DNA of 64,000 bases from Nocardia huaxiensis (lineage in GTDB: Bacteria; Actinomycetota; Actinomycetes; Mycobacteriales; Mycobacteriaceae). Positions within the stretch are counted from its first letter, which is position 1; each line of letters opens with the position of its first letter. Of the stretch, positions 25,945 to 33,520 are shown piece by piece. Below the pieces are notes generated by a model. That model had not been told where the DNA came from, ran no database searches, and saw only the letters and a list, made by a program, of their open reading frames with translations. The stretch is taken from positions 1,550,001 through 1,614,000 of the forward strand of contig NZ_CP059399.1 in the NCBI RefSeq assembly GCF_013744875.1, given 5' to 3'. A program made the translations under genes and the position numbers.

Positions 25945-26795
25945 GTGTCTTCGGAAGCGGTTATCCCGCAATCGAATTGAAGGGCGCGCGGGTGCTGATC
26001 ACCGGTGCGGGCCGCGGCATCGGCGAGCAGACGGCCGTCCTGTTCGCGAGCAGGGGCGCCGAGGTCGGCATTGCCGACGTGGACACCGCCGCCGCACAGA
26101 GCGTCGCGGCGTCGCTGGGCGGCAAGGCTTTCGACCTCGACGTGCGCCATCGTGAGCAGTGGGATCGGGTGGTGGCCGAGTTCGGCCGCGTCGACATCCT
26201 GGTCAACAATGCCGGCGTCATGCCCGCGGGAGCCTTTCTGGACGAACCGGATTCGGTCGGCCGCGCCGCCATGGACATCAATGTGTGGGGCCTGATCCAC
26301 GGCATGCGCGCCGTCGCGCCCGGCATGATCGACCGCGGGCACGGGCACATCGTGAACGTGGCCTCCCTGGCCGGCAAGATCCCGATCGCGGGCCTGGCCG
26401 TCTACAACGCGAGCAAGTTCGCGGCCGTGGGACTCTCCGCCGCAACACGTTTGGAGTTCGCCCCGGCGGGCGTCAGCGTCAGCTGCGTCATGCCCTCGGC
26501 CGTGCGCACCCGCCTGTCGTCGGGCCTGGCCCTCGGCAACGGCATGCCCACCGTGGACCCGGAGGATGTGGCCGCCGCCATCGTCAACACCGTGCGCACC
26601 CGCCGCGCCGAAGTGGCCGTGCCGAACTACCTGGGCCCCATCGACGTCGCCCTGGCCGCCGCCCCGGAGCCCGCGGTGCGCCTGGTGCGCAGGCTCTTCA
26701 ACGGCGACCGCGCCCTGCACCCGGCCGACACCGTCACCCGCGCGGCCTACGAAAACCAGATCCGCTCCATCGCCGACGACAACACGCCGGACTGA
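25941..26795 (+). CDS. Short-chain dehydrogenase/reductase
   Basis: 284 residues, classical SDR: cofactor loop TGAGRGIGEQ, ADVDT after beta-2 (suggesting NAD preference), NNAGVMPAG, catalytic Ser in VASLAGK and YNASK (Tyr-x3-Lys). Translationally coupled to the patatin gene. Substrate unknown; partnership with a lipase suggests an alcohol or aldehyde derived from lipid. Followed 35 nt later by an 11-bp perfect terminator hairpin. Confidence 0.9.
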   Translation: MSVFGSGYPAIELKGARVLITGAGRGIGEQTAVLFASRGAEVGIADVDTAAAQSVAASLGGKAFDLDVRHREQWDRVVAEFGRVDILVNNAGVMPAGAFLDEPDSVGRAAMDINVWGLIHGMRAVAPGMIDRGHGHIVNVASLAGKIPIAGLAVYNASKFAAVGLSAATRLEFAPAGVSVSCVMPSAVRTRLSSGLALGNGMPTVDPEDVAAAIVNTVRTRRAEVAVPNYLGPIDVALAAAPEPAVRLVRRLFNGDRALHPADTVTRAAYENQIRSIADDNTPD

Positions 26796-26885: not shown

Positions 26886-26915
26886 TTGGCCCCTGCTGTG
26901 CGGCGCTGGTAGCGT
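26886..26915 (+). promoter_or_regulatory. Promoter of the tRNA-like RNA
   Basis: TTGGCC (26886-26891) and TAGCGT (26910-26915) are separated by 18 bp. The predicted start, 6-7 nt downstream, is about 26921-26922, exactly where the first helix of the RNA begins. This coincidence is the main support. Confidence 0.55.
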
Positions 26916-26920
26916 GCGGG

Positions 26921-27074
26921 CTGCGATACCCGGTGCGCAGGCGGCGGATACTTCGAAATTTTGGGACGGCGTCCCTCGCGGGTTCGAATCCCGTCGTTCG
27001 CCTCGGCGAACGTGGCTGAGCGGCCGAAAGCGGAATTCCAACGGCCGCTGCCGAACTCGATCTCGGGTAACGCA
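26921..27074 (+). ncRNA. Structured RNA with a circularly permuted tRNA-Ser-like core
   Basis: The 3' half of a class II tRNA precedes the 5' half. Outer helix: 26922-26932 with 27064-27074, 10 of 11 pairs. Inner helix: GGCGGCGG (26940-26947) with CCGCTGCC (27045-27052). Within it: anticodon-stem-like AATTT (26957-26961) with GAATT (27033-27037); variable arm GGGAC-GGC-GTCCC (26963-26975); T arm GCGGG-TTCGAAT-CCCGT (26978-26994); acceptor CGTTCGC (26995-27001), a 4-nt linker, acceptor GCGAACG (27006-27012); U8-like T; D arm GCT-GAGCGGCCGAA-AGC (27015-27031), whose loop differs from E. coli tRNA-Ser by one base as I recall that sequence. TTCGAAA at 26952-26958 resembles a Ser CGA anticodon loop. 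The order is inverted relative to a normal tRNA and no normal-order partner halves exist nearby. Function unknown. Confidence 0.72.
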
Positions 27075-27100
27075 TCGGCCGGGCCGTGCGCCCGGCATGC
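27072..27100 (+). terminator. Hairpin directly after the tRNA-like RNA
   Basis: GCCGGGC (27078-27084) and GCCCGGC (27090-27096) pair perfectly around CGTGC; the stem can extend with GCAT/ATGC across a 2-nt bulge, which would compete with the last pairs of the RNA's outer helix. No U-tract, as is common in actinobacteria. It could be terminator or part of a switch for the gene at 27130. Confidence 0.5.
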
Positions 27101-27129: not shown

Positions 27130-27729
27130 ATGGCAGTTCGCACTGGGGCACTCGTCGCCGCGGCGGCAGTGCTGCTGGGGGAAGCGCTGTGGGTGCTGCT
27201 CGCGCACGGAGAACTCGGCTGGCCGACGGCGACCGCGGTCGTGATCATCGGCATCGCGGTCATGACGCGAAATCGCTGGAGTCCGGCCACCATCGGCGTC
27301 CGGGTGGTGATCGCCCTGCTGTTCCTCGGTTCGGTCGCCGACCGATTCGGCCTGCTCGGTGAGCCCGGCGCACCCGGCGTCTCCTGGGGCGAGTACGACG
27401 CATTCGTGGACTACACGCGAAAGTTGTTGCCCGGCTTCCTGGATTGGTCCGCGCCGACCGCCGCCCTCACGGCGACGGTGCTGGAAACCGTCCTGGGATT
27501 CGGGCTGCTCGTCAGCATCAAGATCCGCTATGTCGCCGCCGCCTCCGGCGCGCTGCTGACGGGATTCCTGATCGCCATGTGGACCTCGGTCGGCTTCGGC
27601 GACATGATGTCCTACGCCGTGCCCGTACTGGTCGCCGGTGCGGCACTGGTCGCCACAGCGCCGCGGCATGACGACGCCGTTCGGGCGGACGGCGCGGCCG
27701 AGAGCCTCCCCACCGCCCTGACCTCTTAG
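27130..27729 (+). CDS. Small polytopic membrane protein, DoxX-like layout
   Basis: 199 residues; ATG 27130 has GGAGG and GGGGGA upstream. About five hydrophobic segments: residues 5-22, 28-45, 56-70, a stretch near 105-130 and 140-170, with a polar C-terminal tail. A loop with GVSWGEYDAFVDYTRKLLP and TVLETVLGFGLL resembles DoxX/DoxD-type proteins, but I would not name it. It lies 56 nt downstream of the tRNA-like RNA, so the RNA might be its leader. Confidence 0.7.
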   Translation: MAVRTGALVAAAAVLLGEALWVLLAHGELGWPTATAVVIIGIAVMTRNRWSPATIGVRVVIALLFLGSVADRFGLLGEPGAPGVSWGEYDAFVDYTRKLLPGFLDWSAPTAALTATVLETVLGFGLLVSIKIRYVAAASGALLTGFLIAMWTSVGFGDMMSYAVPVLVAGAALVATAPRHDDAVRADGAAESLPTALTS

Positions 27730-33433: not shown

Positions 33434-33520
33434 CGTCATCCCGGCGCGCTTTTGGCCGGGATCGACACGGATAGCGGGCGTTGCTCTGTGGATCCCGGCT
33501 AAAAGCATGCCGGGATGACG
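33434..33520. repeat. Long palindromic dispersed repeat, copy C
   Basis: Third copy of the 8014/13869 element; ends CGTCATCCCGG and CCGGGATGACG, begins 8 nt after the lat stop. Confidence 0.85.

Follow-up and report, generated by a model that had tools for sequence, protein, structure and literature searches.

The intergenic RNA described here lies within a window of 64,000 nucleotides from the Nocardia huaxiensis chromosome (positions 26922–27074 of the window, + strand; ~153 nt, with ends placed from the outermost helix); its stem is of Rsr type and bears a tRNA-like module of Ser type. Comparison with related sequences makes its identity as a YrlA-type bacterial Y RNA, and not a member of a new class, near certain. 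As a whole, it is very probably best explained as a Y RNA of this kind in which a permuted Ser-type module, set on the Rsr stem, serves as a handle for docking a partner.

A preliminary description had presented the RNA as tRNA-like, permuted and of class II and Ser type, with two outer helices that hold it together, and had named no described family like it. The structure is true, its pairs having been confirmed by script, and it is explained in kind already: the RNA is YrlA, and passages of PMC11472068 describe a bacterial Y RNA that superposes on tRNA as a circular permutation, so the permuted relation was already in print. What looks new is the variant, together with an unexpected pattern across the genus.

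Architecture of the RNA and evidence for its fold

Reading of the sequence and a scripted pair check placed all the helices of the preliminary description at 26922–27074. All features given below are on the + strand. The outer stem P1 is formed by 26923–26933 and 27063–27073 (10 of 11 pairs, one G-U) and the inner stem P2 by 26940–26947 and 27045–27052 (eight pairs, one G-U), which agrees with the helices of 8 bp and 10 of 11 bp claimed before. P2 is adjoined by UACUUC (26949–26954), and CGAUCUCGG (27058–27066) lies on the 3' side of the stem. Both UACUUC and the AUCUCGG part of CGAUCUCGG are invariant in a 12-sequence alignment (A2), an invariance that is partly built in, as the members of A2 were chosen partly by these motifs.

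Inside the outer helices, a class II variable arm (26963–26975; 5/5 pairs, loop GGC) is followed by a T arm (26978–26994; five pairs, one G-U, loop UUCGAAU), an acceptor-like hairpin (26995–27012) in which 26995–27001 and 27006–27012 form 7/7 pairs joined by the 4-nt linker CUCG, and a D arm of Ser type (27015–27031, within GUGGCUGAGCGGCCGAAAGC) with three pairs (27015–27017 with 27029–27031) and the loop GAGCGGCCGAA. This is the order of a permuted class II tRNA-like core. The perfect 5-bp variable arm, the T loop and the seven acceptor pairs across 4 nt are as first described. The D loop had likewise been assigned to tRNA-Ser, and the best match of the module among 62 distinct tRNA sequences of another Nocardia genome (G123) is tRNA-Ser(UGA) (71.0), followed by a tRNA-Gly (63.6). 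The claim that every arm of a class II tRNA can be formed holds for the acceptor, T, D and variable arms and fails for the anticodon arm, which is absent from the window copy. The only hairpin with a 7-nt loop 5' of the T arm in this copy lies within the variable arm and lacks a U at loop position 2; its loop matches none of the tRNA anticodon loops of G123. ARAGORN reported no tRNA in the window, so no normal-order tRNA runs across the RNA, and no tmRNA.

The minimum free energy of 26921–27090 is no better than chance (z −0.25; 80/200 shuffles equally good). In an unconstrained fold of the window copy, a rival hairpin that uses 27019–27026 beats the D arm and P2 (−66.1 vs −55.3 kcal/mol), and this preference is a real weakness of the copy. 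The case for the structure comes from comparison, that is, from the model match, covariation in relatives and a syntenic relative, and not from folding energy.

In an 11-sequence alignment, 10 of 32 pairs changed on both sides, giving 22 such cells, a result reached by 0/500 shuffles. RNAalifold, applied to the same 11 sequences without a given structure, returned essentially identical consensus helices. Further pair types showed no excess in this alignment (18 vs 17.4 in shuffles), and the D arm is invariant across the 11 sequences and hence gains no covariation support there. One P2 pair is a non-standard A-C in 10 of 11 relatives and a G-U in the window. In a set of 95 sequences from 33 sources, 27 pairs and 450 cells showed two-sided changes (0/500 shuffles), figures that lean towards the model to which the sequences were aligned; three D-arm pairs, fitted to the model in the same way, are among those that change on both sides. 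These comparisons indicate that the Y RNA structure is under selection.

Kinship with YrlA and association with Rsr

Eleven Nocardia Y RNAs, the window RNA not among them, went into a covariance model (R1). Its members were picked with stem motifs, the first being an 18-base stretch of the window itself; the choice made no use of the T arm, the acceptor or the D arm. The preliminary description had proposed a covariance-model search of Nocardiaceae as a check, and R1 indeed finds the RNA at full length (26923–27073) with 71.0 bits (E 7.4e-16), a score whose stem share is not fully independent, the next best match in the window reaching 17.6 bits; compensatory changes in the relatives were found as well. 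RNAs near Rfam-YrlA matches in other Nocardia have an outer stem that is nearly base-for-base the same as that of the window RNA.

The Rfam model of YrlA (RF02553) gives a weak full-length match (26941–27057, 21.9 bits), below its gathering score of 69, and this cut-off was reached by 0/150 Nocardia genomes. It misses the Y RNAs of the whole genus Nocardia, rsr-adjacent copies included, and was not counted as defining biology. At E up to 10, the same model matches 150/150 Nocardia genomes and 12/14 controls; because they are so unspecific, these matches were used solely to find loci.

Membership in YrlA was judged by a permuted tRNA-like domain, by the terminal stem and by the presence of an Rsr gene. 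The RNA has the domain (T arm, closed acceptor and D arm), alignment A2 and model R1 show its terminal stem to be homologous with the one in Y RNAs linked to rsr, and the Rsr gene, encoding the TROVE protein P0027, is most likely located on the window's own chromosome. Inside the window, tblastn with two Nocardia TROVE proteins found no TROVE gene, which sets this copy apart from rsr. Alignment identified the outer helices and their flanking conserved bases as the stem common to rsr-adjacent Nocardia Y RNAs. With YrlA of Salmonella and Mycobacterium smegmatis the RNA thus shares an Rsr-binding-type terminal stem and the order of T arm, loop-closed acceptor and D arm, and its Nocardia relatives are associated with TROVE/Rsr genes. 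It differs from YrlA in its class II Ser-type module, in its position away from rsr and in scoring below the Rfam cut-off.

TROVE (PF05731) was found in 64/148 Nocardia genomes. When a strong R1 match was defined as a best E ≤ 1e-8, a threshold chosen after seeing the table and at which both stem types score, 59 genomes had both the RNA and TROVE, one had the RNA only, five had TROVE only and 83 had neither (Fisher p 4e-34, for related genomes and lists compared by hand). R1 matches of any strength occurred in 101/148 genomes, which is an upper figure; some of the weak ones cover the tRNA-like core only and may be ordinary tandem tRNAs. A best R1 match of at least 99 bits was accompanied by TROVE within ~2 kb on the same contig in 21/21 genomes (hand comparison), nine of which had supplied sequences to R1.

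Arrays of Y RNAs with one common stem and very different inserts were seen at several rsr loci (L165, L166, L168, L172, L217–L221). Among the inserts are class I tRNA-like and Gln-like modules, mini forms without a T arm and one form of 187 nt in which additional hairpins occur. A second stem type (GCGGGCCGGA...GGUCGGUUACC...CCACGACCGC), also with permuted tRNA modules, occurs at L162, L169, L170, L210 and other loci, and in genome G007 it adjoins a different TROVE protein than the first stem type does (L128 vs L129). At L206:3171–3325 a long GC-rich insert sits on this shared first-type stem in a Y RNA that has no T arm; it lies on contig C36 of genome G006, while the rsr array of this genome is on C12.

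An order-wide search with R1 matched 26/249 genomes at 1e-6, and Nocardia accounts for at least four of these. Plasmids and phages, searched with the RNA by BLAST, yielded short local matches only, none covering more than 80% of the query. A viral pattern scan for a T loop followed by a Ser/Leu D arm hit at least 120 loci, and the best 25 of at least 123 matches look, by eye, like tandem tRNA genes.

Module types and anticodon loops across Nocardia

Sorting of 95 matches by regular expressions for the D arm gave 42 class I, six Gln-like, four Leu-like and two GGUCGA types, besides 20 others with a T arm, 19 without a T arm and two labelled Ser. One of the latter, L215, had been mis-sorted and is a class I copy, which leaves the window RNA as the sole Ser-type among the 95. 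The Leu-type copies L203, L208:3678 and L214:3798 also carry a variable-arm hairpin (by eye). A Ser-type D arm is further present in L303 (genome G088), which adjoins a second TROVE gene and has no obvious variable arm. A pattern search of the genus matched 16/148 genomes, and L303 and L305 are the only matches with the look of a Y RNA, a verdict that draws on the matched letters for all 16 and on a fuller reading of two.

The window copy has a syntenic counterpart in G123 (locus L203). The short-chain dehydrogenase (SDR) gene upstream of the RNA (25947–26795, + strand; PF00106) marks the syntenic site: at L203 the same upstream genes are found (SDR 84%, patatin 87%), an aldehyde dehydrogenase (ALDH) gene follows directly downstream, and the Y RNA sits between SDR and ALDH. 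In P1, five pairs differ between the two loci yet still pair, and in four of these the change affects both strands. The acceptor and the D arm are kept in L203, with two-sided changes; one P2 pair is A-A there, and a different arm of four pairs takes the position of the variable arm. The L203 module is of Leu type, its seven best matches among the 62 distinct G123 tRNA sequences all being tRNA-Leu. The type of mimic at one locus thus differs, Ser in the window and Leu in G123; judged from the sequences, this would be a case of isotype switching and looks new.

Real anticodon loops were found in a part of the family. A hairpin of at least three pairs (G-U allowed) with a 7-nt loop identical to one of 52 G123 tRNA anticodon loops is present in 15/83 distinct Y RNAs with a T arm, compared with a mean of 0.29 and a maximum of 2 when the flanks were shuffled (500 single-base shuffles; the sequences are related). 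Six loops account for the matches: Arg-UCU, Arg-CCU, Arg-ACG, Lys-CUU, Glu-UUC and Asp-GUC. A 7-nt loop of any sequence with U at the second place occurs in 49/83 vs 26.3 in shuffles (maximum 40). Authentic anticodon-loop hairpins just 5' of the T arm were observed at L132, L149, L158, L161, L164, L166, L172, L213, L215 and L222. From their sequences, some class I Y RNAs resemble complete tRNAs that have been cut open at the junction of D arm and anticodon arm. The window copy does not belong to the Y RNAs with an anticodon arm.

Two features look new: class II mimics, which have a variable arm, and the anticodon arm that part of the Nocardia Y RNAs carry. No class II or anticodon-like Y RNA is described in the titles and abstract openings of the literature scanned, a set that does not extend to the founding YrlA papers. 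That copies differ in isotype and have either a real anticodon loop or a long variable arm suggests selection on features that only enzymes able to read the isotype would see.

Possible roles of the RNA

By analogy with known Y RNAs, the window RNA would be an Rsr-bound adaptor. Passages of PMC4726728 state that Rsr is bound by Yrl RNAs in M. smegmatis and Salmonella. In those of PMC8394870, the YrlA stem tethers Rsr, and the tRNA-like domain, which is similar to D, T and acceptor arms, receives modifications from DusA and TruB; Rsr and YrlA are said there to guide PNPase to structured RNA. In the window RNA, the P1/P2 stem would accordingly be bound by Rsr, as expected from the family, and the tRNA-like module would serve as an effector handle, by which a partner that recognises tRNA is docked to the Rsr ring. 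Closed at its acceptor end, the module would not be chargeable. The most likely partner would be the exonuclease PNPase, as in the Rsr-Y RNA-PNPase machine (RYPER) of Deinococcus radiodurans, or else another tRNA-binding enzyme; PNPase is a guess that we hold at somewhat below even chances. Our working model likens the RNA to the Deinococcus Y RNA, whose stem holds Rsr and whose effector part docks the partner, with the difference that PNPase binding by the window RNA is an analogy. The Ser-type set of arms would choose or tune the partner.

A minority view, to which we give perhaps one chance in several, is that the RNA is a decoy: the Ser-type module would titrate an enzyme that attacks or modifies tRNA, and Rsr would merely stabilise the RNA. 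An anticodon nuclease, a tRNA methylase or seryl-tRNA synthetase could be the target, each envisaged with the same reserve. The varied isotypes of the modules and the real anticodon loops in relatives fit this idea, and a passage of PMC7790460 raises the possibility that YrlA of Salmonella inhibits a tRNA anticodon nuclease by competition. The window copy, however, has no anticodon arm, and the co-occurrence with Rsr is explained without a decoy.

Improbable, though deserving more attention than the readings that follow it, is a decaying gene, with a site that once worked in several Nocardia and is being lost, and a window copy that is perhaps defunct. An SDR match was found in 76/148 genomes, and among the best 30 loci examined ALDH is next to SDR in 20 and an intact Y RNA (R1) was found at one, that of G123. 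Short motif relics at the same site were recognised by eye in G011, G071 and G150, where R1 was not convincing (at most 14.5 bits). The genome with the SDR closest to that of the window (G010) has no Y RNA match at the site and is not among the TROVE-bearing genomes; two weak R1 matches lie elsewhere in it. This scarcity of intact copies, which also weighs against the preferred reading, could mean that the window copy is dispensable. Decay would also suit the favoured rival fold and the region upstream of the RNA. There the promoter-like site of the preliminary description, TTGGCC-18-TAGCGT (26886–26915, + strand), is present and relatives have a similarly placed TANNNT; it is weak, and a consensus promoter scan reported none at this position. 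TANNNT stands 10 nt before the first model-match base in 28/60 best A4 matches and 11 nt before it in six; in the window, which is one of these 60, the distance is 13 nt. The element GAAAA...GATGCG seen in array copies is missing from the window copy, and orphan copies may, from these upstream sequences, be regulated differently from array copies. What speaks against decay is that the helices are all intact, with compensatory changes relative to G123, that the conserved single-stranded bases are intact as well, and that the copy still scores 71 bits with the model.

Some observations on these spacers are added here. By eye, the array copies among the 60 best upstream regions have a common upstream element, GAAAAtnnnGATGCG (GAAAA...GATGCG), and a TACAGT-like −10. 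Relic spacers after SDR are L330, L331 and L336, and in L331 the middle is gone, with the two outer-stem halves seemingly retained. A REP-like palindromic repeat (GGATCCCGGCnnAAAGCnnGCCGGGAT-like) is found at 33438–33516 of the window and in the Nocardia spacers L329, L336 and L338.

Circularly permuted tRNA genes exist in algae and archaea, and two-piece tmRNA has a permuted tRNA-like part. With the former the window RNA shares the encoding of the 3' half before the 5' half; it differs in having no anticodon arm and hence not a complete tRNA, in its unconserved linker and in its Rsr stem. The permuted tRNA-like part is common to two-piece tmRNA and the window RNA, which differs in its class II variable arm and Rsr stem; neither a tag reading frame with its core nor, by ARAGORN, any tmRNA was found in the window. 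Most likely, the RNA is not a tRNA precursor. The two-piece tRNA-Ser proposed before, in which RNase P and 3' processing would open the 4-nt linker and CCA would be added, is very improbable despite the perfect 7-pair acceptor and the T and D arms: besides the missing anticodon arm, neither the sequence nor the length of the linker is constant among 11 aligned relatives (by eye), an argument against conservation of a site for cleavage or CCA, and the acceptor of the Rfam YrlA consensus is closed by a loop too. The earlier suggestion that the RNA regulates the membrane gene at 27130, as its leader or otherwise in cis, has in its favour that the RNA lies 55 bases upstream on the same strand; it is just as hard to credit, as G123 keeps the RNA with no copy of the gene detected there, and as the seven loci with relatives of the gene (L121–L127) have no model match beside it, the only R1 matches being ~3.2 kb off at one locus and covering the tRNA-like core only.

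With copies of different isotype, what had been a vague "tRNA mimic" gains partners that can be tested, and a single locus that is Ser-type in one genome and Leu-type in another amounts to a natural experiment. More tentatively, and with the odds against it, Nocardia may possess a range of Rsr-bound RNAs, each presenting a tRNA of another type (Arg, Lys, Glu, Asp, Gln, Leu, Ser) opened between the D and anticodon arms, some of class I with a real anticodon loop, with an identity that switches at one locus, and these RNAs may be isotype-specific tRNA baits. If this is true, the baits would aim an RNA quality-control ring at enzymes that recognise tRNA isotypes, or would shield tRNAs from them.
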